A stretch of DNA of 32,785 bases. Source: Bacteroidota bacterium. Lineage in GTDB: Bacteria; Bacteroidota; Bacteroidia; B-17B0; Aurantibacillaceae. A model generated the notes under the pieces. That model was given only the letters and a program-made list of their open reading frames with translations, ran no database searches and was not told the origin of the DNA. Made by a program: the position numbers and the translations under genes. Shown here piece by piece: positions 19,300 to 29,888 of the stretch (positions within the stretch are counted from its first letter, which is position 1; each line of letters starts with the position of its first letter). The DNA is taken from assembly GCA_013816615.1 (NCBI GenBank), contig JACDED010000008.1:31335-64119 (forward strand), given 5' to 3'.

Positions 19300-19998
19300 T
19301 TATAATTTTATATTATTCATTCCTCCATCAATTGAAAGAGTTTGAGAAGTGATCCAATTTGATTTTTCTGATAATAGAAATTCTATCGCATTCGCAATAT
19401 CAGTAGCTGATCCAATTTTTTTTAGTGGATTGCGTTTTTGAGAAGCTTCTAGTTTTTCAGGTGTATTAATAAATTTCTCAGACAGTGTGGTTTCTGTTAA
19501 AGAAGGCGCCACACAATTTACGCGGATTTTAGGCGCCAATTCCGCAGCGAGTGATCTTGTTAAGCCTTCTATTGCCGATTTTGCCGCGGAAATAGAGCTG
19601 TGATAAGGCATACCTTGTGTAGCGGCAACTGAGCTTATAAATACGATGGAAGGAGAGTTAACAGATTTTAAATTTTTTAGATATGCTTGTGTAAATGCAA
19701 TCGCCCCTAAAACGTTTATGTTGTAATCGTTTAAAAAATCTTTTTCAGTAAAAAGATGAAAAGGTTTTAGATTGATCGTTCCGGGAAAATAAACGATCCC
19801 ATCAATCCCATCAGTAATTTCAGGAAAAGAACCAAAGTTGTAATTATTTACTTCATATACAGAGTCATAACCTTCAATATTATTTTTTGTGCTAATACCC
19901 ATTACTATATTTTTTTTTTTGCGCAATAGATTTGCGGTTTCAATTGCTATTTTGCTTGATGCTCCTGCAAATAAATAACGCTTTTGTGGATCGTTCAT
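19300..19998 (-). CDS. Short-chain dehydrogenase/reductase-like protein lacking the catalytic tyrosine
   Basis: A 232-residue SDR-fold protein, last gene of the minus-strand light-cluster operon (ATGA overlap with the gene before it). Family features include NVLGAIAFTQAYL, IVFISSVAATQG (catalytic-serine strand), AAKSAIEGLTRSLAAELAP, RVNCVAPSLTET and the C-terminal SIDGGM. It is atypical in two places. The nucleotide loop reads FAGASSKIA instead of TGxxxGIG, and in the YxxxK motif Lys140 is present but the tyrosine position is Ile136 (HSSISAAK), with a tyrosine four residues earlier at 132. I recall the same substitution in SDRs beside DUF2805 genes in other bacteria, so it may be a subfamily trait. 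Sepiapterin-reductase-like activity is conceivable given the pterin genes, but unproven. Confidence 0.82.
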   Translation of the reverse strand: MNDPQKRYLFAGASSKIAIETANLLRKKKNIVMGISTKNNIEGYDSVYEVNNYNFGSFPEITDGIDGIVYFPGTINLKPFHLFTEKDFLNDYNINVLGAIAFTQAYLKNLKSVNSPSIVFISSVAATQGMPYHSSISAAKSAIEGLTRSLAAELAPKIRVNCVAPSLTETTLSEKFINTPEKLEASQKRNPLKKIGSATDIANAIEFLLSEKSNWITSQTLSIDGGMNNIKL

Positions 19999-20228: not shown

Positions 20229-20354
20229 CTAAATAATTCTGTTAATGTCATTAGTAGTTAATTCGTCTTTTTTTACGTCATGATTTTCCGAAGCATATGC
20301 CCATGGCGAGGGGAGGCCGCTATAATGGCAATATAAATTCAGATTTTCTTCCAT
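20229..20354 (-). CDS. 41-residue micro-ORF in the light-cluster operon, unknown
   Basis: Between the SRPBCC gene and the DUF2805 gene the minus strand encodes 41 residues beginning MEENLNLYCHYSGLPSPWAY and ending TTNDINRII. It is too short for most gene callers. Support comes from gene packing: its ATG overlaps the upstream TGA (TGATG) and its TAG directly abuts the next ATG, leaving no non-coding bases in the operon. The sequence has a Cys-His pair (YCHY) and a GLPSPWAY turn, no membrane helix, and does not look like DUF2256, the usual small zinc-finger neighbour in such clusters. I do not recognise a family. It could alternatively be the remnant of a longer gene. Confidence 0.5.
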   Translation of the reverse strand: MEENLNLYCHYSGLPSPWAYASENHDVKKDELTTNDINRII

Positions 20355-20821
20355 CATTTTTTTGAATTAAATAACTCTTCAACTTTTTGATGCCTATAAG
20401 CGAATATCTCTTTTAATTGCTTTTTTACAAATAAACTATTTACTAGTCTGCCTAAAAAACCAAATGGCAATCTGTAATGAACTATGTCAGCCATTTCAAT
20501 ACCTCCATCTACTTGTTTTAAAAAATGTTTGTGATGCCAAAATGCATAAGGGCCAAAGCGCTGTTCATCAACAAAGTAATAATTATGTTCTACATGCGTT
20601 ATTTCTGTTACCCACTTTATTTTAATTCCTAAAGCAGGTGTTACAGTATATTCAATTATTTGTCCTGCAGACATCTTATCCAAAGGTTTTGTTTCATTAA
20701 TGATCTTAAAATTCATGTAAGAAGGAGTTATAACAGCAAGGTTGTTTGGTGAGCTAATAAACTCCCAAGCTGTATCTATATCACTTTTAATATGCTGACA
20801 GCTTTCTATTTTATGTAACAT
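20354..20821 (-). CDS. SRPBCC (START/polyketide-cyclase-like) family protein
   Basis: A 155-residue helix-grip protein. It starts IESCQHIKSDIDTAWEFIS, has the central WVTEITHVEHNYYFVDEQRF followed by GPYAFWHHKHFL, then ADIVHYRLPFGFLGRLVNSL and the C-terminal helix KKQLKEIFAYRHQKVEELF. This matches the SRPBCC subgroup that also occurs fused to the epimerase YfcH (SulA-like) and is recurrent in LitR/CarH-controlled clusters. The ligand is unknown; a hydrophobic cavity for a lipid or pigment is the general expectation. It is the first gene of the minus operon, divergent from the pterin genes; a GAAATTTG box at 20835-20842 (7 of 8) lies 13 bp before its ATG, next to the inverted-repeat operator. 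Confidence 0.82.
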   Translation of the reverse strand: MLHKIESCQHIKSDIDTAWEFISSPNNLAVITPSYMNFKIINETKPLDKMSAGQIIEYTVTPALGIKIKWVTEITHVEHNYYFVDEQRFGPYAFWHHKHFLKQVDGGIEMADIVHYRLPFGFLGRLVNSLFVKKQLKEIFAYRHQKVEELFNSKK

Positions 20822-20852: not shown

Positions 20853-20888
20853 TTTTGTTTAACAAATATATTATTTTATTAAACAAAA
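20853..20888. promoter_or_regulatory. Predicted CarH/LitR-type operator 1 (divergent promoter)
   Basis: A perfect 10-bp inverted repeat, TTTTGTTTAA (20853-20862) and TTAAACAAAA (20879-20888), with a 16-bp spacer. From GTTTAA to TTAAAC the core spans 28 bp (20857-20884). It is centred between the divergent -7-like boxes at 20835-20842 and 20895-20902. The same core with the same 28-bp span recurs upstream of crtI. The MerR/B12 protein encoded at 22470 is the obvious candidate binder (inference). Confidence 0.65.
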
Positions 20889-20909: not shown

Positions 20910-21326
20910 ATGGGCAATGATCGAATTTCGGTTTACAGGAAAGAGCATTTTAACGCCGCTCACAGGCTTAATAATGCTATGCTTAGCGTAGAAGAGAATA
21001 AAGCCGTTTTTGGAAAATGCAATAACGAAAATTTTCATGGGCATAATTATGAATTAATTATTAAAGTAACCGGTATTTTAGACCCTTTAACCGGTTATTT
21101 AATTGATATGAAGATCTTAAGTGATATTATAAAAGAGGAAATTATTGAAAGATTTGATCATAAGAATTTAAATTTAGATGTAATTGAATTTAAGGACCTA
21201 AATCCCACAGCTGAAAATATTGCTATAGTAATTCATAAGATCCTAAGAGCAAAGATCGAAACTAAGTATGAATTAAAGATTATTTTATATGAAACAGAAA
21301 GAAACTATGTTGAATACCCCGTATAA
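20910..21326 (+). CDS. 6-pyruvoyl-tetrahydropterin synthase / QueD family protein
   Basis: A 138-residue T-fold enzyme that acts on 7,8-dihydroneopterin triphosphate, the FolE product. Zinc ligands are His18 (FNAAHRL), His43 and His45 (HGH); the catalytic cysteine is Cys37, and the DHKNLN segment (83-88) and the purine-anchoring glutamate in YETERN are present. The cysteine motif is C-x5-HGH (GKCNNENFHGHNY), as in eukaryotic PTPS that makes 6-pyruvoyltetrahydropterin, rather than the C-x3-HGH usual for QueD of queuosine synthesis. A biopterin-type role is therefore favoured, but not certain. It is first in a plus-strand series with folE, DUF2452 and the MerR gene, behind operator 1. Confidence 0.85.
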   Translation: MGNDRISVYRKEHFNAAHRLNNAMLSVEENKAVFGKCNNENFHGHNYELIIKVTGILDPLTGYLIDMKILSDIIKEEIIERFDHKNLNLDVIEFKDLNPTAENIAIVIHKILRAKIETKYELKIILYETERNYVEYPV

Positions 21327-21339
21327 AGAAGATATAGTA

Positions 21340-22005
21340 ATGAATGAAAGTATAATAGAAGAAATTGGCAATGAACACATTAGCTCATCAATTGAAACGC
21401 CAATGGTGGAGAATGCTTTTGTTTTGAGTGATGAAGAGAAAATTGAAAAGATACAGATACATTTTAAAGCAATAATGGAAACTTTAGGGCTTGATCTGAA
21501 TGATGACAGTTTAAATGGAACGCCTCACCGTGTTGCAAAAATGTATGTAAAAGAAATTTTTAATGGGTTAGATCCTGCAAATAAACCTGCAATTAAATTA
21601 TTTGAAAATAAATATCAATACAACCAAATGCTGGTTGAAAAAGACATTACATTTTACAGTAACTGCGAGCATCATTTTGTGCCATTCTTTGGAAAGGCGC
21701 ATTTAGCATATATTTCTAATGGCAATGTAATTGGTTTGTCTAAACTAAATCGTATTGTACAATACTTTGCAAAACGACCACAGGTGCAGGAACGTTTAAC
21801 AATGCAAATTGCAAATGAATTAAAAGAAGCATTAAATACCGAAGATGTTGTAGTTGTTATTGAGGCAAAACATTTATGCGTTTCTTCACGAGGAATAAAA
21901 GATGAGAGCTCATCTACTGTTACCTCTTTTTATGGCGGAAAATTTAAGGAGGAACAAGCTAAAAACGAATTTCTCAATTATTTAAATCTAAAGAATATTC
22001 ATTAA
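21340..22005 (+). CDS. folE: GTP cyclohydrolase I
   Basis: FolE converts GTP to 7,8-dihydroneopterin triphosphate, the first step of folate and tetrahydropterin synthesis. From ATG 21340 it has 221 residues, the normal length. The zinc site is complete: Cys109 and His112 in YSNCEHHFVPFFG and Cys180 in HLCVSSRGI, with the GTP-binding TPHRVAKMY and IGLSKLNRIVQYFAKRPQVQ segments. The frame is open to ATGs at 21289 and 21307 that lie within the PTPS gene; ATG 21340, 13 bp after its stop, is preferred. folE genes are known members of LitR-controlled light regulons in several proteobacteria, which agrees with the nearby B12-type regulator. Confidence 0.94.
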   Translation: MNESIIEEIGNEHISSSIETPMVENAFVLSDEEKIEKIQIHFKAIMETLGLDLNDDSLNGTPHRVAKMYVKEIFNGLDPANKPAIKLFENKYQYNQMLVEKDITFYSNCEHHFVPFFGKAHLAYISNGNVIGLSKLNRIVQYFAKRPQVQERLTMQIANELKEALNTEDVVVVIEAKHLCVSSRGIKDESSSTVTSFYGGKFKEEQAKNEFLNYLNLKNIH

Positions 22006-22433
22006 TGATCAACCCTATTGATAAAGATAAAACTGCAGAAAATCCCGGACTAATCGCTTATCCACACACAATAGGAAGTGCAGTGATAAAGCCGGAAGAT
22101 CTTGGTAAATTAAAGTCAAGGGCACTTTCTGTAATGCGTGAACAAACGGATATGCACTTATTACAAATTCAAAAACAAGTAGAATTATTAATAAGCCAGG
22201 CAAATGCAATTCAAAAAAGGATAGAGATCAGCGAAACAATATACAATGCTGTTATTTCATTTGAGCCTTTAGTTGGACATACGTATTATTTGTATAAAAA
22301 GGAAAATGAATACAGAGTAATGATGATAGGGCCTGACGAGTGGGGCAGGTCAAAGAGAAATGAACCTCTTATATACATTAATACCGTAAAGTTATTAAGT
22401 GATCATACTTGGGAAATTTTACATGATCTATAA
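22005..22433 (+). CDS. DUF2452 (C1orf50-like) family protein
   Basis: A 142-residue soluble protein resembling DUF2452/C1orf50: an N-terminal GLIAYPHTIGSAVIKPED motif, a long helix (KLKSRALSVMREQTDMHLLQ to KRIEISETIY), and a C-terminal domain with FEPLVGHTYYLYKKENEYR, then MIGPDEWG. The molecular function of the family is unknown, although it is conserved from bacteria to humans. The ATG overlaps the folE stop by one base (TAATG), implying translational coupling with pterin synthesis. It is followed after 36 bp by the MerR gene. Confidence 0.8.
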   Translation: MINPIDKDKTAENPGLIAYPHTIGSAVIKPEDLGKLKSRALSVMREQTDMHLLQIQKQVELLISQANAIQKRIEISETIYNAVISFEPLVGHTYYLYKKENEYRVMMIGPDEWGRSKRNEPLIYINTVKLLSDHTWEILHDL

Positions 22434-22469: not shown

Positions 22470-23348
22470 ATGAGGTTATATCAGATAACAGAGTTAGAAC
22501 AATTAACAGGCATTAAAGCGCATACTATACGTATTTGGGAAAAGCGTTATAGCTTAATTGAACCTGACCGTACATCTACCAATTATCGCAGGTATAATGA
22601 TGAGCAGGTAAGAAAAATATTAAATGTTTCTACACTTCTAACAAATGGATATAAAATTTCTAAAATCGCGGCACTAAGTGAAAAAGAAATTCATGCTAAG
22701 ATACATGAAATGCAAGCGAACACAAATGAGGATGTAATTTTTACAGGGTTTATTAATGATCTTGTAGCTGCAATGATAATCTTTGACGAGCCTGCTTTTG
22801 AGAAAACATATTCCGCTGTTATAAACCGTTTAGGACTTTATGATGCAATGGTAGATGTGTTTTATCCTTTGTTAAATAAAATAGGTCTTTTATGGTCTAC
22901 AAGCGATGTTAGCCCTGCACAAGAGCATTTTGCATCGTGTTTGATCAAACGAAAAATAATGGCTGCAACTGATGGTTTGCCAGCTCCAAAAAACAAGAAA
23001 AAGAAATTTTTATTATTGCTCATTCCTGAAGAGATGCATGAAATAAGTTTGTTGTTTGCAAATTATATTATTCGTTCAAAAGGCTATGAAACAATATATC
23101 TTGGGCAGGATGTTCCTTATGAAAATATTTCAATGGTTGTAAAGCAAGCGAAGCCAAATGTCTTACTTACCTTTTTTACAACACCGCAGGATCCAAAGTC
23201 TGTTTATAGTGATTTTAAAAAGAATTTAAATTTTAACGAAAATATAAAGGTGCTTGTAAGCGGTCATGCAGGTATTACAGAGTATTTAAAAAATAAAATG
23301 TCGGCTATTATTATTTCCAAGCCTGCTGATCTGTTGGCCCATATTTAA
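22470..23348 (+). CDS. MerR-family regulator with B12-binding domain (CarH/LitR-like)
   Basis: A 292-residue regulator with a MerR winged helix (residues 1-70; YQITELEQLTGIKAHTIRIW, EKRYSLIEP, NYRRY), a four-helix B12-cap domain (about 85-175) and a cobalamin-binding Rossmann domain (about 178-292). The W-x9-EH signature of adenosylcobalamin photoreceptors is present as Trp142, Glu152 and His153. The lower-ligand histidine is His190 in EMHEIS, a variant of the E/DxHxxG motif, followed by GYETIYLGQDVP. In Thermus CarH the residue after the tryptophan is His132, which forms the bis-His photoadduct; here it is Ser143. B12 binding is likely, while the light response may differ. By family analogy it is a dark repressor of the crt genes, and the inverted repeats nearby are candidate sites. 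Confidence 0.88.
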   Translation: MRLYQITELEQLTGIKAHTIRIWEKRYSLIEPDRTSTNYRRYNDEQVRKILNVSTLLTNGYKISKIAALSEKEIHAKIHEMQANTNEDVIFTGFINDLVAAMIIFDEPAFEKTYSAVINRLGLYDAMVDVFYPLLNKIGLLWSTSDVSPAQEHFASCLIKRKIMAATDGLPAPKNKKKKFLLLLIPEEMHEISLLFANYIIRSKGYETIYLGQDVPYENISMVVKQAKPNVLLTFFTTPQDPKSVYSDFKKNLNFNENIKVLVSGHAGITEYLKNKMSAIIISKPADLLAHI

Positions 23349-23427: not shown

Positions 23428-23457
23428 TTGTTTAACACTATTCTATTTTAGTTAAAC
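23428..23457. promoter_or_regulatory. Predicted CarH/LitR-type operator 2
   Basis: GTTTAAC (23430-23436) and GTTAAAC (23451-23457) form a 7-bp perfect inverted repeat with the same 28-bp span as operators 1 and 3; the left side also shares the flanking TT. The nearest downstream -7-like box, TAGTTTCA at 23471-23478, is weak (6 of 8) and no gene follows it before crtI. Confidence 0.5.
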
Positions 23458-23625
23458 GTAAAATACCAGCTAGTTTCATGGTTTTTTCCAGGAAACTGAT
23501 TGTTTATTTTTGTTAAATATTTATCGCTCCTTTATTCCTTTTATACTATAACATTCAGACTTATAGGTACTTCTATAAATGACTTAAAATTTTTAATTTT
23601 TTGATATATCCGTGTTTTTGAAATT

Positions 23626-23667
23626 TTATTTTGTTTAACTATATTTGTTTTTTATTAAACAAAATAA
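23626..23667. promoter_or_regulatory. Predicted CarH/LitR-type operator 3 (crtI promoter)
   Basis: A perfect 13-bp inverted repeat, TTATTTTGTTTAA (23626-23638) and TTAAACAAAATAA (23655-23667), with a 16-bp spacer. The inner TTTTGTTTAA/TTAAACAAAA arms are identical to operator 1 and the GTTTAA-TTAAAC span is again 28 bp (23633-23660). It ends 5 bp before the TAGATTTG box, so a bound repressor would occlude the -33 region. Confidence 0.68.
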
Positions 23668-23724: not shown

Positions 23725-25203
23725 TTGAAAAAGATTGGTGTAATAGGATCCGGGATCAGTGGACTAAGTGCAGCAGCGGTATTATCGTCTGCGGGACACG
23801 AGGTAATGGTTTTTGAAAAAAATCAAACATTAGGTGGTCGTATGCGTCAGTTTAACGAAATGGGTTTTGCGTTTGATATGGGGCCAAGCTGGTACTGGAT
23901 GCCCGATGTATTTGAACGTTTTTTTGCCCGTTTTGGGTATAAAAGCAGCGATTTCTATGAACTAAAAAAGCTCGATCCGGGTTTCCAGGTTATTTATAAT
24001 AACGAAGAGATCGTTAAAGTACCGGCTACATGGAGTGAATTGCTGGAGCTTTTTGAAAAGCATGAAACAGGAGCTGCTGTTAAACTTGAAAAATTTATGG
24101 CCGAAGCTGCCTATAAATATGATGTAGGAATAAATGAACTTATTTATCAGCCAGGGCTTTCATGGAGTGAGTTAATTACACCTTCAACCTTGAAGGGAGT
24201 ATTAAGATTACAATTATTCTCATCCTTTAGTAAACATGTAAGAAGATATTTTAAAAACGAAAAATTAATTTCTTTAATGGAATTTCCTATTCTGTTTTTA
24301 GGAGCAATGCCACAAAACACACCCGCACTTTATAGTCTTATGAATTATGCAGGCTTAAAGCAAGGTACATTTTACCCAATGGGAGGATTTAAAAAAGTTA
24401 TAGATGCCTTTGTGAAAATAGGAACTGAAAATGGCGCTCAATTTTTTACTTCCGAAACTATTGAGTCTATAAATAAAAAAGATGCATCACAAATAGAGCT
24501 GATAACCAGTTCAGGCAAAATAATTTTAGATGGTTTAATTGCAAGTGCCGATTACAATCATGTTGATTCAACGCTCATTAATAAGGAATTTAGAAATTAC
24601 GATGATGCTTATTGGGATAATAAGGTCTTCGCACCTTCATGTCTTATATTTTATATTGGAGTAAAGCAAAAAGTAGATCGGCTTGAGCACCATAACTTGT
24701 TTTTTGATGCAGATTTCCCTCAGCATGCTAAGGAAATATATACTGATCCAAAATGGCCAACTAAACCTCTATTTTATGTGTGTTGCCCTTCTAAAACAGA
24801 TCCATCTGTTGCTCCGGTTGGTATGGAGAATTTATTTGTTTTAATGCCAATTGCTCCTGGATTGGAGGATAACGGAAATATACGTCAGGAGTTTTTTACA
24901 CTGCTTATGCAAAGACTGGAAAAATTTACCGGGTGTAAAATAAGAGATAATATTCAATACCTAAAGAGTTATTGTGTAAATGACTTTAAGAAGGATTACA
25001 ATTCATATAAAGGCAACGCTTATGGTTTAGCAAATACACTTATGCAGACTGCTAATTTAAAACCTAAGATAAGGAACAAAAAAATAAATAATTTTTATTA
25101 TGCCGGCCAATTAACAGTGCCTGGGCCCGGGGTTCCACCCTCTATTGTTTCGGGACAGGTTGCCGCTGAACAATTATTAAAAAGCTTAAAGGCCGGTTTA
25201 TGA
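23725..25203 (+). CDS. crtI: Phytoene desaturase CrtI (TTG start)
   Basis: The FAD-dependent desaturase converts phytoene stepwise to lycopene at the membrane. The 492 residues begin with the dinucleotide fold KKIGVIGSGISGLSAAAVLS and the GRMRQ segment, and end with the carotenoid-oxidase signature FYYAGQLTVPGPGVPPSIVS plus GQVAAEQL. The length is normal. The start is TTG at 23725: an in-frame TAA at 23716-23718 excludes longer products and the next ATG would remove the FAD motif. The stop overlaps the crtB start by ATGA. Sequence alone cannot tell a 3-step from a 4-step desaturase, but the lycopene cyclase downstream suggests that lycopene is made. It is expressed from the TAGATTTG promoter behind operator 3. 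Confidence 0.93.
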   Translation: MKKIGVIGSGISGLSAAAVLSSAGHEVMVFEKNQTLGGRMRQFNEMGFAFDMGPSWYWMPDVFERFFARFGYKSSDFYELKKLDPGFQVIYNNEEIVKVPATWSELLELFEKHETGAAVKLEKFMAEAAYKYDVGINELIYQPGLSWSELITPSTLKGVLRLQLFSSFSKHVRRYFKNEKLISLMEFPILFLGAMPQNTPALYSLMNYAGLKQGTFYPMGGFKKVIDAFVKIGTENGAQFFTSETIESINKKDASQIELITSSGKIILDGLIASADYNHVDSTLINKEFRNYDDAYWDNKVFAPSCLIFYIGVKQKVDRLEHHNLFFDADFPQHAKEIYTDPKWPTKPLFYVCCPSKTDPSVAPVGMENLFVLMPIAPGLEDNGNIRQEFFTLLMQRLEKFTGCKIRDNIQYLKSYCVNDFKKDYNSYKGNAYGLANTLMQTANLKPKIRNKKINNFYYAGQLTVPGPGVPPSIVSGQVAAEQLLKSLKAGL

Positions 25204-26036
25204 AACAGATATTTGATAATGTTTCTGCCAAGTGCAGCAAAATAGTTACTAAGGAATATAGTACCAGTTTTTCGCTTGGGATAAATTTTCTGGATCAAAA
25301 AATGCATGACCCTATTTACGCGATCTATGGCTTTGTAAGATTTGCCGATGAAATAGTGGATTCTTTTCATGACTATGATAAAAAAAAGCTTTTAGAAAAA
25401 TTTAGAAACGAAACAGTTTCAGCTATTTCTGATAAGATCAGTCTAAATCCTATTTTAAATTCTTTTCAAAAAGTAGTTCACGAGTATAAAATTGATTGGG
25501 AATTAACGGATACTTTTTTAAAAAGTATGGAAATGGATCTCGAAAAACAAAATTATGATCAGGTTAATTATCAGACCTACATACTTGGTTCGGCAGAAGT
25601 TGTTGGTTTAATGTGTTTAAGAGTTTTTGTTAATGGTAATGATGAATTATATAAACACCTTAAGCCTTTTGCAATGAGCCTTGGGGCGGCTTTTCAAAAA
25701 GTAAATTTTTTAAGGGATGCTAAAGCAGATTTTGAAGTATTAGGCCGCATTTATTTTCCAGGTGTTAATATTGAAAATTTTGACGTTGATAGTAAAAAAA
25801 ATATTGAAGAGGACATAGAAAAAGATTTTAGACACGCTTTAGTGGGTATTAAACAACTTCCGGCAGAATCTAGAATGGGCGTTTACCTGGCGTATTACTA
25901 TTATAAACGTCTTTTTAATAAAATAAAATCTTTGCCTGCAAAAAGAATTTTAACCGAAAGAATACGGATACCAAATGCACAAAAATTCGGATTGATGTTT
26001 CAATGTATGATCAGGCACCAATTAAATATGTTATGA
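25200..26036 (+). CDS. crtB: Phytoene synthase CrtB
   Basis: Condenses two geranylgeranyl diphosphates to phytoene. The 278 residues show the squalene/phytoene synthase landmarks: STSFSLGINFL, YGFVRFADEIVD (first aspartate-rich motif), LGAAFQKVNFLRDAKADFEV (second motif) and GRIYFP. The overlap with crtI (ATGA at 25200-25203) and with the next gene (ATGA at 26033-26036) points to translational coupling. No GGPP synthase is encoded in the window, so the C20 precursor must come from elsewhere in the genome. Confidence 0.94.
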   Translation: MKQIFDNVSAKCSKIVTKEYSTSFSLGINFLDQKMHDPIYAIYGFVRFADEIVDSFHDYDKKKLLEKFRNETVSAISDKISLNPILNSFQKVVHEYKIDWELTDTFLKSMEMDLEKQNYDQVNYQTYILGSAEVVGLMCLRVFVNGNDELYKHLKPFAMSLGAAFQKVNFLRDAKADFEVLGRIYFPGVNIENFDVDSKKNIEEDIEKDFRHALVGIKQLPAESRMGVYLAYYYYKRLFNKIKSLPAKRILTERIRIPNAQKFGLMFQCMIRHQLNML

Positions 26037-26561: not shown

Positions 26562-27026
26562 ATGCATTTTGTAATTAATATAGTTGTTGTAATCGCCGCT
26601 TTTATTGCGATGGAGGGTGTAGCATGGTTTTCGCATAAATATATAATGCATGGCCTGCTTTGGAAATTGCATAAAGACCATCACGTACCCAATCAAAATA
26701 ATAAATTTGAACACAATGATTTTTTCTTTATCATATTTGCAACACCGGCTATTATCTTTTTCATTATTGGGTTTAATGATTTTTCAATTCCATTTTGGGC
26801 TGCTATAGGTATTACATTGTACGGCCTGGCTTATTTTTTTATTCACGATCTGTTTATTCATCAGCGTATAAAAGTATTACGAAATGCCGATTCAAAATAC
26901 TTCAGAGTTATTCGTAAAGCGCACAAAGTTCATCATAAACATTTAAATAAAGAAGATGGTGAATGTTTTGGGATGCTTTGGGCTCCATTAAAATATTTTA
27001 AGGAAACAAAAAAGAATGCAGGCTAA
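26562..27026 (+). CDS. crtZ: Beta-carotene hydroxylase CrtZ
   Basis: A 154-residue membrane protein of the fatty-acid-hydroxylase type that adds 3-hydroxyls to beta-ionone rings, giving zeaxanthin. All histidine boxes for the di-iron centre are visible: HKYIMH (25-30), HKDHH (37-41), HDLFIH (95-100) and HKVHH (121-125), among four hydrophobic segments. The length is typical of bacterial CrtZ. Its 3' end overlaps the lycopene cyclase start by 11 bp. A hydroxylase with no ketolase in the operon implies a zeaxanthin-type product. Confidence 0.94.
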   Translation: MHFVINIVVVIAAFIAMEGVAWFSHKYIMHGLLWKLHKDHHVPNQNNKFEHNDFFFIIFATPAIIFFIIGFNDFSIPFWAAIGITLYGLAYFFIHDLFIHQRIKVLRNADSKYFRVIRKAHKVHHKHLNKEDGECFGMLWAPLKYFKETKKNAG

Positions 27027-27705
27027 ATTAACTTATCTTTTGGTTGATATTGGAGCGTTTTTAGTTCCTTTTCTTTTTAGTTTTCACCCTAAAATTAATT
27101 TTTATAAAGTTTGGAAATCGTATTTGCCAGCTAACTTATTTGTAACCTTAGTTTTTTTAATATGGGATATCTATTATACAAAAATTGGTGTATGGGGTTT
27201 TAACGACAAATATATTTTAGGAATAAAATTATTCAATTTGCCGGTAGAAGAAGTTTTATTTTTTATTTGCATCCCGTACTCAAGTATTTTTACTTACTAC
27301 TGTTTTAAATTGTTCTATCCAAAAGTTCAAACATATTCGTTTGGACTTGTTTCTGCGATCCTTGTAGCGATACTTGTTTTCGTCGGATTTTTCTCTCTTT
27401 CTAAGCTATACACAAGTGTTACGTTTATTTTACTTGCCATTTTAATTGTTTATTTGGCATTTGTAAAAAAGAAAGAATGGCTTTCGAATTTTTATTTAAT
27501 GTTTTTAATAATATTATTACCCTTTTTTATTGTTAATGGAATTTTAACCGGTACGGGCCTCTCTGAGCCTGTTGTTTGGTATAACAATTCGGAAAATTTA
27601 GGATTTAGAATTTTAACTATACCTATTGAAGACATTTTTTATGGTATGTTACTGCTGCTTCTAAATACTTTTTTATTCGAAAGTTTTCGCAAAAAAAATG
27701 CATAA
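27016..27705 (+). CDS. Lycopene cyclase (fused heterodimer-type, two CarR/CrtYcd domains)
   Basis: A 229-residue polytopic membrane protein containing two copies of the lycopene cyclase domain (TIGR03462). The paired signature is PVEEVLFF (76-83) in the first half and PIEDIFYG (203-210) in the second; actinobacterial CrtYc and CrtYd carry these domains on separate polypeptides. There are about seven hydrophobic helices. It should convert lycopene to beta-carotene before hydroxylation by CrtZ. It overlaps crtZ upstream and the glycosyltransferase downstream (8 bp). Confidence 0.9.
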   Translation: MQAKLTYLLVDIGAFLVPFLFSFHPKINFYKVWKSYLPANLFVTLVFLIWDIYYTKIGVWGFNDKYILGIKLFNLPVEEVLFFICIPYSSIFTYYCFKLFYPKVQTYSFGLVSAILVAILVFVGFFSLSKLYTSVTFILLAILIVYLAFVKKKEWLSNFYLMFLIILLPFFIVNGILTGTGLSEPVVWYNNSENLGFRILTIPIEDIFYGMLLLLLNTFLFESFRKKNA

Positions 27706-28816
27706 AGAAAAATTGCTAATATTTCCATTCGATCTCATGTCGCATTATCTTCGTTGTATTGAGTTGGCCAAGCAATATAAACACTATGAGATCTTGTTTG
27801 CCTATTCCAAAAAATATAATTCGTTTGTGAAAAAAGCGGGATTCGGATCCTTTAACGTAGAAACATTTAACCCTGTTGAAGTAATGAAATGTGCAGAGGA
27901 ATTTAATTTTTCGTGGCTAAATACAGAAAATATAAAAAGAGTTTTCAAATCACAAATAAAAATTATAAATGAACTAAAACCCGACATGGTTATTGGTGAC
28001 ACATCGCCAACTCTTAAAATGGCAACAGAGGCATGCCAAATTAAATATGTTGCTTTAATGAATGGATATATGTCTAAACATTATAACGGTGTAAGAACTT
28101 TATCAATTACTCATCCGGGATACAAGCATCTTATTAAACTTCCTGAAAATGTAAGAGACTTTATTACAAAATTTGCAGAGAAAATAGCTTTTAAAATTGT
28201 GCACAAACCATTCAGAAAAATACGTAAAGAAAATAATCTGAGTTATGTTTCAAATTATATAAATGAAATGGAAGGCGATGAAAATTTATTGTGTGATGAA
28301 GAATGGTTGTTTCCTCAAAATAAATTGCCACATAATTATCGTTTTATAAAACCATTGTGTTATGAATCAAATGATAGTGAAGATAATTTAATTTCTTTAT
28401 TAGACCCATTAAAACCTACGGTTTGTGTTTGCCTTGGGAGCAGTGGTAACTGGGTAGCATTAAATTTTTTATCAGATAAAAAATATTCGCTTGTAAATAT
28501 TATAGTAACGGGTGATCTTAAACAAACACTTGCAGGACAGCATATTTATCATCGGGAATTTGCAAATTTAAATGCCATTTTGCCCAAGTGCGCCTTTTTG
28601 ATTTGCCATGGTGGTAATGGCACAATTTATGAAGGGCTTAGGCACAAAAAATATATGTTATGTTTGACAAGCCATTTTGAACAGGAATGGAATGTACAAC
28701 GCCTTTCAAAATTAAACCTCGGTACAATGATCAATAATGCGCCTGAATTTTATATTAATAGAAAAATAAAAGAGGTAGTGGCAGAAAATAAAAAACCCAC
28801 TTACGAAAAATTGTAA
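27698..28816 (+). CDS. UDP-glycosyltransferase-like protein, candidate carotenoid glycosyltransferase
   Basis: A 372-residue GT1/GT-B fold protein, the last gene of the carotenoid operon. The N-terminal half begins KLLIFPFDLMSHYLRCIELA (acceptor domain). The C-terminal nucleotide-sugar site reads CHGGNGTIYEGLRHKKYMLC, followed by SHFEQEWNVQRL, the UGT/MGT signature in which His, Glu and Gln contact the donor. It is shorter than plant UGTs but near bacterial CrtX/MGT size. The overlap with the cyclase gene and shared terminator argue for a pigment substrate such as zeaxanthin; this is inference. The last codons form the left arm of the terminator stem. Confidence 0.78.
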   Translation: MHKEKLLIFPFDLMSHYLRCIELAKQYKHYEILFAYSKKYNSFVKKAGFGSFNVETFNPVEVMKCAEEFNFSWLNTENIKRVFKSQIKIINELKPDMVIGDTSPTLKMATEACQIKYVALMNGYMSKHYNGVRTLSITHPGYKHLIKLPENVRDFITKFAEKIAFKIVHKPFRKIRKENNLSYVSNYINEMEGDENLLCDEEWLFPQNKLPHNYRFIKPLCYESNDSEDNLISLLDPLKPTVCVCLGSSGNWVALNFLSDKKYSLVNIIVTGDLKQTLAGQHIYHREFANLNAILPKCAFLICHGGNGTIYEGLRHKKYMLCLTSHFEQEWNVQRLSKLNLGTMINNAPEFYINRKIKEVVAENKKPTYEKL

Positions 28817-28904: not shown

Positions 28905-29888
28905 TTACCAACCTAAGATCCACGCAAAAATTAATGGGGCAACAATAGTTGCATCACTTTCAACAATAAACTTTGGTGTATTAATATCTAATTTACCCCA
29001 TGTAATTTTTTCGTTTGGTACCGCACCTGAATAAGAACCATATGAAGTTGTTGAATCAGAGATCTGGCAGAAATAACTCCAAAAAGGAATGTTTGTCATT
29101 TCCATATCCTGGTACAACATTGGCACAACACAAATAGGAAAATCACCTGCAATTCCACCGCCAATTTGAAAAAAGCCAACACCTTTGCCGCCGCTGTTCT
29201 TCGGATACCAGTCTGCTAACCATGCCATATATTCAATACCACTTTTCATGGTGCTTGCTTTTATTTCGCCTTTAATAACATACGAGGCAAAAATATTTCC
29301 CATCGTACTATCTTCCCAACCTGGTACAACCATTGGTAAATTACGCTCTGCAGCTGCAAGCATCCAACTATCTTTGGGATCAATTTCAAAATATTGTTTT
29401 AATTCTCCGCTTAATAAGATCTTGTACATAAATTCATGAGGAAAAAAACGTTCGCCATTTGTATCGGCATCTTTCCATATTTTATGAATGTGTTTTTGTA
29501 AACGACGGAATGCTTCTTCCTCAGGAATACAAGTATCTGTAACACGGTTGTAATGGTTCTCTAAAAGATCCCATTCATCCTGCGGCGAAAGATCACGATA
29601 ATTTGGAACACGTTTGTAATGGCTATGCGCCACTAAATTCATAATATCTTCTTCAAGGTTTGCACCGGTGCAAGAGATAATATCAATTTTTCCCTGGCGG
29701 ATCATTTCTGCTAATGATTTACCTAATTCAGCAGTACTCATAGCTCCTGCAAGAGTTACCATCATTTTACCACCTTCGGTTAAATGTGTTTCGTATCCTT
29801 TAGCAGCATCTACTAAAGCTGCTGCGTTAAAATGTTTATAATGAGTTTCTACAAATTTTGAAACGGGTCCTTTGTTTGCTGCTGACAT
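28905..29888 (-). CDS. Deoxyhypusine synthase-like protein lacking the canonical catalytic lysine
   Basis: A 327-residue cytosolic protein of the deoxyhypusine synthase family (PF01916). Conserved segments include VTLAGAMSTAELGKSLAEMI, IISCTGANLEEDIMNL, the DSTMGNIFASYVIKGE region and C-terminal SGAVPNEKITWGKLD and ESDATIVAPLIF, which bind NAD and spermidine in true DHS. The eukaryotic active-site lysine lies in a GxxKHH loop; here the equivalent reads GGGIAGDF. Bacteria lack eIF5A, so modification of that protein is excluded. Bacterial homologues have been linked to homospermidine-type polyamine chemistry, but without the lysine the mechanism here is open. A TATCTTTG box lies 21 bp before the ATG. 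Confidence 0.85.
   Translation of the reverse strand: MSAANKGPVSKFVETHYKHFNAAALVDAAKGYETHLTEGGKMMVTLAGAMSTAELGKSLAEMIRQGKIDIISCTGANLEEDIMNLVAHSHYKRVPNYRDLSPQDEWDLLENHYNRVTDTCIPEEEAFRRLQKHIHKIWKDADTNGERFFPHEFMYKILLSGELKQYFEIDPKDSWMLAAAERNLPMVVPGWEDSTMGNIFASYVIKGEIKASTMKSGIEYMAWLADWYPKNSGGKGVGFFQIGGGIAGDFPICVVPMLYQDMEMTNIPFWSYFCQISDSTTSYGSYSGAVPNEKITWGKLDINTPKFIVESDATIVAPLIFAWILGW

Follow-up and report, generated by a model that had tools for sequence, protein, structure and literature searches.

Introduction

CarH of Thermus thermophilus (TtCarH; structures 5C8D/5C8E and the 8C31 series) joins a MerR-type helix-turn-helix (HTH) to a four-helix cap and a Rossmann B12 fold, and is encoded beside carotenoid genes, in a cluster that also has a photolyase gene. 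Its tetramer binds tandem 11-bp direct repeats (PMC9304148); elsewhere, CarH sites are likewise direct repeats or differ in form. In the light state, His132 is the upper ligand of a bis-His complex. When this cap residue is replaced (H132A), adenosylcobalamin (AdoCbl) and the dark tetramer are kept, and photolysis leads to hydroxo-Co(III) at 352 nm, the bis-His light state of the wild type being reported near 359 nm; the illuminated mutant was found to be mostly still tetrameric, although the same paper cites an earlier study with disassembly (PMC10442372).

Some light-responsive B12 domains lack the cap His naturally. According to two reports (PMC11796333, PMC10979010), these include CtMerR of Chloracidobacterium thermophilum (8JBS/8JBT), a member of another phylum, with Arg, and the photocobilins SasPcob, with Gln, and AbDPcob, with Tyr (8J2W-8J2Y), which share the AdoCbl cap-Rossmann module but have a bilin-binding domain in place of the MerR HTH. 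The reports describe a Glu of CtMerR that reorients to make a water-mediated contact with cobalt, in a light structure that is anaerobic only (PMC11796333), and a SasPcob light state that is monomeric and ligated by water or hydroxide (PMC10979010, PMC11796333). A photoreceptor without bis-His ligation therefore has precedents; loss of the cap His could still weaken light release unless compensated, since TtCarH H132A stays largely tetrameric after light (PMC10442372).

Two other branches of the family are relevant. The class II LitR repressors of Pseudomonas (PplR1, PmlR2) lack the full B12 module, PmlR2 acting with a LOV partner; their light regulon includes photolyase, folE, and short-chain dehydrogenase genes, and their site is T(G/A)TACA-N12-TGTA(C/T)A (PMC9758184). 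Myxococcus CarA has the LitR/CarH fold but not the Trp of the Wx9EH motif, and is B12-independent; its dimers bind inverted repeats at a crt promoter.

The carH-like gene and its neighborhood

The DNA considered here (the window) is a 32,785-nt stretch of a Bacteroidota genome. Its carH-like gene closes a probable operon with pterin genes and lies just upstream of a crt operon (Table 1), whose final glycosyltransferase gene suggests a glycosylated carotenoid. A deoxyhypusine/homospermidine-synthase-like gene (28905-29888) is convergent with the crt operon. An Rfam scan of the window found one tRNA only, and no cobalamin riboswitch. As to AdoCbl supply, the genome has PduO-type adenosyltransferase and methylmalonyl-CoA-mutase-family genes.

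Table 1. Features of the window near the carH-like gene; assignments of sites and operons are predictions.
Feature	Position	Strand	Remarks
Short-chain dehydrogenase (SDR)	19300..19998	-	a separate operator copy lies ~400 bp 5' of its homologs in related genomes
SRPBCC-like protein	20354..20821	-	no Pfam match, family name assigned by the analyst; divergent from operator
Candidate CarH operator, exact TGTTTAA-N16-TTAAACA	20856..20885		divergent intergenic region SRPBCC< / PTPS>-folE-DUF2452-carH
PTPS, 6-pyruvoyl-tetrahydropterin synthase-type	20910..21326	+	first gene of probable carH operon
folE, GTP cyclohydrolase I	21289..22005	+	probable carH operon
DUF2452 protein	22005..22433	+	directly 5' of carH
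carH-like gene	22470..23348	+	MerR HTH, residues ~3-70; four-helix B12 cap domain, W142-x9-E152-H153; Rossmann B12 domain, lower-ligand H190; S143 at cap position; S193 in ExHxxG
Second candidate operator, TGTTTAA-N16-TTAAACG (last base G)	23429..23458		5' of crtI
Bacteroidota-type promoter match TTTG-N19-TATATTTG	23617..23647	+	for crtI; overlapped by operator 23632..23661
Candidate CarH operator, exact TGTTTAA-N16-TTAAACA	23632..23661		5' of crtI; overlaps promoter
crtI, phytoene desaturase (NF058655 CrtID)	23725..25203	+	first gene of target operon
crtB, phytoene synthase	25200..26036	+	crt operon
crtZ-type hydroxylase (FA_hydroxylase)	26562..27026	+	crt operon
Lycopene cyclase	27016..27705	+	crt operon
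Glycosyltransferase	27698..28816	+	last gene of crt operon

The carH-like ORF begins with ATG and encodes a MerR-type regulator of 292 amino acids with a CarH fold. It matches the Pfam families MerR_1 (PF13411, E 1e-15) and B12-binding_2 (PF02607, E 2e-8); in the same scan its Rossmann part gave no match to the Pfam B12-binding domain. Residues 21-27 of the recognition helix read RIWEKRY, of the RxWERRY type, with R21, W23, E24, K25, and R26 invariant in 63 homologs.

The original prediction, made from this sequence before any comparison, was that the protein keeps the Trp-x9-Glu-His motif and the lower-ligand His, but has Ser both for the cap His and for the Gly of ExHxxG; it proposed alignment with characterized CarH proteins as a check. 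Alignment with full-length Thermus CarH (pTT27, L118), at ~20-26% identity, bears out all of these residue assignments: W142 corresponds to W131, S143 to H132, E152 to E141, H153 to H142, M189 to R176, H190 to H177, S193 to G180, G205 to G192, and D214 to D201. A phmmer alignment gives the identical register. The Wx9EH of the four-helix cap domain and the lower-ligand His of the B12-type Rossmann domain are both present. Three canonical TtCarH features are not: the His following the Trp, the upper ligand of the bis-His light state; the Arg176-Asp201 dimer salt bridge, of which the Arg is lost (M189/D214 here); and the strict CarH motif D/ExHx2G/P-x41-SxT/V-x22-27-GG (as given in PMC9304148), here ExHxxS, with T234 for Ser and SG for GG. 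The product thus belongs to the AdoCbl-binding branch of the broad LitR/CarH family without being a canonical CarH.

Three motifs of the SignatureFinder signature for light-responsive B12 domains are kept (GxxW at 139-142, EH at 152-153, and GxxxP at 212-216), and the fourth, GxxH, reads E187-E-M-H190, without its Gly, a residue that makes a main-chain contact according to the authors. Against the NCBIfam equivalog for TransRegCarH (NF052513) the protein scores 97 bits, with a cut-off of 400 that is also unreached in all 14 control genomes, Thermus composti among them. An AlphaFold model computed with 62 homologs (mean pLDDT 91) has TtCarH as its closest solved structures, along its entire length (Foldseek E 2e-18); its cap and Rossmann domains match TtCarH with Z 21-22 and an rmsd of ~2.2 Å, with CtMerR (Z 21) and the photocobilins just behind. 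Together, residue conservation and the predicted fold make AdoCbl binding a well-supported expectation.

The cap position in Bacteroidota homologs

Homologs were taken from named genomes, relatives of the window's genome, a phylum sample, and plasmids; the 80 named-genome loci are best matches to the query, and the separate phylum sample was added to lessen that bias. Among the 187 Bacteroidota homologs of the main clade, residue 143 is never His. Gln is the most frequent (96), followed by Leu (21), Ser (20), Thr (10), Gly (8), Ile and Ala (6 each), Met and Arg (5 each), Val (4), and others; residue 193 is Gly in 132, Ser in 31, and Ala in 16. Over the whole homolog set, His at the cap position is restricted to Thermus and a single protein of Persicobacter, which has no EH. 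The original prediction had allowed that a different His might align with the cap; none does, and a search for a relocated cap His across the 187 found more than 50% His only in columns 18 (in the recognition helix), 153, and 190. Cys157, one helical turn past His153, was considered as a thiol ligand, but while it is Cys in 17 of the 45 members of the query's branch it is Asn in most homologs, and it is not proposed.

That branch was defined in a tree built without column 143. Many of its members adjoin crt genes, and position 143 is variously Ser, Thr, Ala, Arg, Ile, and so on, the query's nearest kin having Ser, Thr, Ile, or Val. Lack of the cap His is a trait of the branch as a whole and not the oddity of a single protein, contrary to the rarity that the original prediction implied: the substitutions at 143 and 193 are real, but ordinary in Bacteroidota. 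One genome (G030) has two CarH-like paralogs (contig C1:917353 and C1:2399923), of which one falls in the query's branch and the other in the Gln/Leu branch.

While position 143 varies freely, W142, E152, H153, and H190 are all kept in 177 of the 187. This bears on whether the regulator might be B12-independent, like Myxococcus CarA, with the B12 domain a relic and light sensed by some other component, for instance a partner protein or an ECF sigma factor. The degeneracy of the Rossmann motif (ExHxxS, T234 in place of Ser, SG in place of GG), the missing Pfam match for that domain, and the co-occurrence of an ECF sigma gene (below) could all be read in this way, but CarA homologs are marked by loss of the Wx9EH Trp (PMC9304148), which is kept here, and such conservation of Trp, Glu, His, and the lower His would be hard to explain without AdoCbl. 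A CarA-like regulator accordingly seems quite improbable.

A candidate operator

A conserved inverted repeat, TGTTTAA-N16-TTAAACA, emerged when the region 5' of crtI was compared with those of relatives; beyond it, direct alignment of these regions fails because distant loci carry other downstream genes. The copy upstream of the carH operon implies autoregulation. The copy nearest crtI overlaps a promoter match, the geometry expected of a repressor; this is the single exact match in the window to TTTG-N19-TAnnTTTG, which we take to be the Bacteroidota housekeeping promoter consensus (0.66 expected by chance over the whole window). By count, palindromes with up to two mismatches are not beyond chance in the window (8, vs. 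4.15 expected), so that the case for an operator rests on exactness, position, and conservation.

Conservation is considerable. At the carH loci of relatives, allowing one mismatch, there are 139 palindromes with a 16-bp spacer and 17 with 17 bp, vs. 0-9 for each other spacing from 6 to 26. Among named-genome loci, 64 of 79 have the palindrome within 800 bp of carH, compared to 0.3 in Markov shuffles, with Gln, Leu, Ser, Thr, Gly, or Arg at the cap position, and it accompanies carH with or without adjacent crt genes. Ser143 was considered as the mark of a functional split and rejected, the frequency of operators near carH being similar for Gln (33/41), Leu (9/10), Ser (11/12), Thr (4/5), and Gly (3/4). 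Where operators are paired, their spacings cluster at 41-44 and 60-65 bp, or about four and six helical turns, with few others, which suggests cooperating dimers. Tandem pairs ~63 bp apart are found at loci L023, L052, L062, L063, L064, L068, and others, and ~42 bp apart elsewhere.

There is thus a strong, if computational, case for TGTTTAA-N16-TTAAACA as the operator of the CarH-like regulator. It differs from the TtCarH site in being a palindrome with a 16-bp spacer, and from the Pseudomonas LitR site in both half-site and spacing. In the openly available papers searched, no characterization of a Bacteroidota CarH and no report of this operator or its regulon was found.

Distribution and putative targets across genomes

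The genome to which the window belongs (4.68 Mb) has TGTTTAA-N16-TTAAACR without mismatch only at the three window sites and at C103:11662, where it precedes an ECF sigma factor gene and, after that, one for DNA photolyase (L220:1501-3030, G000 contig C103). A different 30-bp sequence, TGTTAAATATGCTTTATTTTTATTTAAACG, recurs ~20 times in this genome (G000), mostly at contig ends, and probably belongs to a multi-copy mobile element with no link to CarH.

Of 100 related genomes, 63 have CarH, and 55 of these carry the exact palindrome, as do 3 of the 37 others, in a test that ignores phylogeny; within the window's genus the figures are 31/31 and 1/9, and several further genera show the same contrast. 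The exceptions are thus eight CarH-positive genomes without an exact site and three CarH-negative ones with it. The ECF-sigma gene is distributed similarly (51/63 vs. 2/37), and its pairing with the photolyase gene recurs in many CarH-positive relatives. A search for it in 17 CarH-negative relatives found none, a result that can be interpreted because the same query found the gene in 51 of the 63 CarH-positive genomes.

If the palindrome were instead the site of a different regulator, carH could be merely a frequent neighbor of that regulator's targets. The operator assignment is computational, co-occurrence is no proof, and three of the 37 CarH-negative genomes have one exact site each. Such a regulator would, however, have to track carH among close relatives of one genus and lie near it at most loci whether or not crt genes adjoin; the half-site TGTTTA also resembles the footprinted TGTACA half-site of another LitR-family protein (PMC9758184). 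We consider this explanation very improbable.

At 41 exact-site loci distal to carH, an ECF-sigma homolog adjoins the site in 18, joined by a photolyase gene in 17, and crtI-crtB in three. Other genes at such sites include SRPBCC, SDR, folE, a second photolyase/cryptochrome-type gene, and rhodopsin (PF01036). At L257:1726-2438 the gene immediately after an exact operator is of the bacteriorhodopsin family (PF01036), which suggests CarH-type control of rhodopsin there. Six distal sites precede genes for large DUF4397-like secreted proteins (L253, L259, L262, L267, L269, L272), of which one is confirmed by Pfam; a type IX secretion tail is present in L262, the one scanned. These are possibly light-induced secreted proteins. 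A Caballeronia plasmid (L124) has a DUF4397 gene after a B12-MerR gene.

The nature of these targets helps to separate the two readings offered by the original prediction. That the protein is a photoreceptor whose photoproduct differs is plausible, with precedents in H132A, CtMerR, SasPcob, and AbDPcob; that it senses B12 and not light is disfavored, because the putative operator precedes carotenoid genes and the ECF-sigma/photolyase operon. In the latter case the protein would bind AdoCbl but report B12 (or redox) status: without a cap His, photolysis would leave DNA binding intact, and derepression would follow when AdoCbl is scarce. Ser143 and the mostly tetrameric state of illuminated TtCarH H132A (PMC10442372) are in keeping with this, as are the other AdoCbl users in the genome. 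The predicted regulon is nevertheless photoprotective, with rhodopsin and cryptochrome/photolyase genes added in relatives, and SasPcob, with the Gln that is commonest at the cap in Bacteroidota, still becomes monomeric in the light (PMC10979010, PMC11796333). A B12-status regulator is therefore considered unlikely.

Proposed mechanism

The reading preferred here, and in our judgment quite probably the correct one, is a repressor that depends on AdoCbl, acts in the dark on a photoprotection regulon, and is released by light through a water-capped state independent of bis-His ligation. Homology, fold, residue identities, operator-regulator co-occurrence, and target genes were computed; AdoCbl binding, repression, light release, the light-state ligand, and the oligomer are inferred. 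In the dark, the protein would bind AdoCbl: His190 would provide the lower ligand, and Trp142 and Glu152/His153 would pack against the adenosyl group. So loaded, the protein would oligomerize and repress promoters with TGTTTAA-N16-TTAAACA: those of its own operon (PTPS-folE-DUF2452-carH), the divergent SRPBCC gene, the crt operon, and the ECF-sigma/photolyase operon. This step draws on homology and the operator evidence.

In the light, the Co-C bond would be cleaved and the adenosyl group lost. Because position 143 is Ser, a bis-His state of the Thermus kind would not be possible; the His190-Co(III) form would most likely be capped by water or hydroxide, which Glu152 may hold in place, as a Glu does in CtMerR. 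Loss of adenosyl packing would then release the protein from DNA. Here the argument is from homologous proteins and the photoprotective nature of the regulon. Points against the overall reading are the tetramer retained by H132A after light, the lost Arg176-Asp201 salt bridge (M189/D214 here), the degenerate Rossmann motif with no match to the Pfam B12-binding domain, and the 8 + 3 operator exceptions.

Implications

More broadly, it is somewhat likely that the AdoCbl photoreceptor-repressors of Bacteroidota make up a large branch whose members never enter the bis-His state, bind a palindromic operator (sometimes as pairs ~42 or 63 bp apart) instead of direct repeats, and control a phylum-wide photoprotection regulon of carotenoid, photolyase, ECF sigma, and pterin genes, to which genes for rhodopsin and DUF4397 secreted proteins are sometimes added. 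In Pseudomonas, LitR is already known to control photolyase and folE, through a different site; what is added here, as a well-supported prediction, is the Bacteroidota DNA site and its photoprotection regulon. The putative operator provides a short DNA for binding tests, with target genes named ahead of experiment.

The role of the cap His in CarH is contested, two studies of H132A disagreeing on tetramer dissociation in light (PMC10442372). Natural relatives that lack it throughout a phylum, on a seemingly similar photoprotection regulon, make the question testable, and the many naturally capless CarH proteins are possible candidates for green-light switches whose recovery differs.
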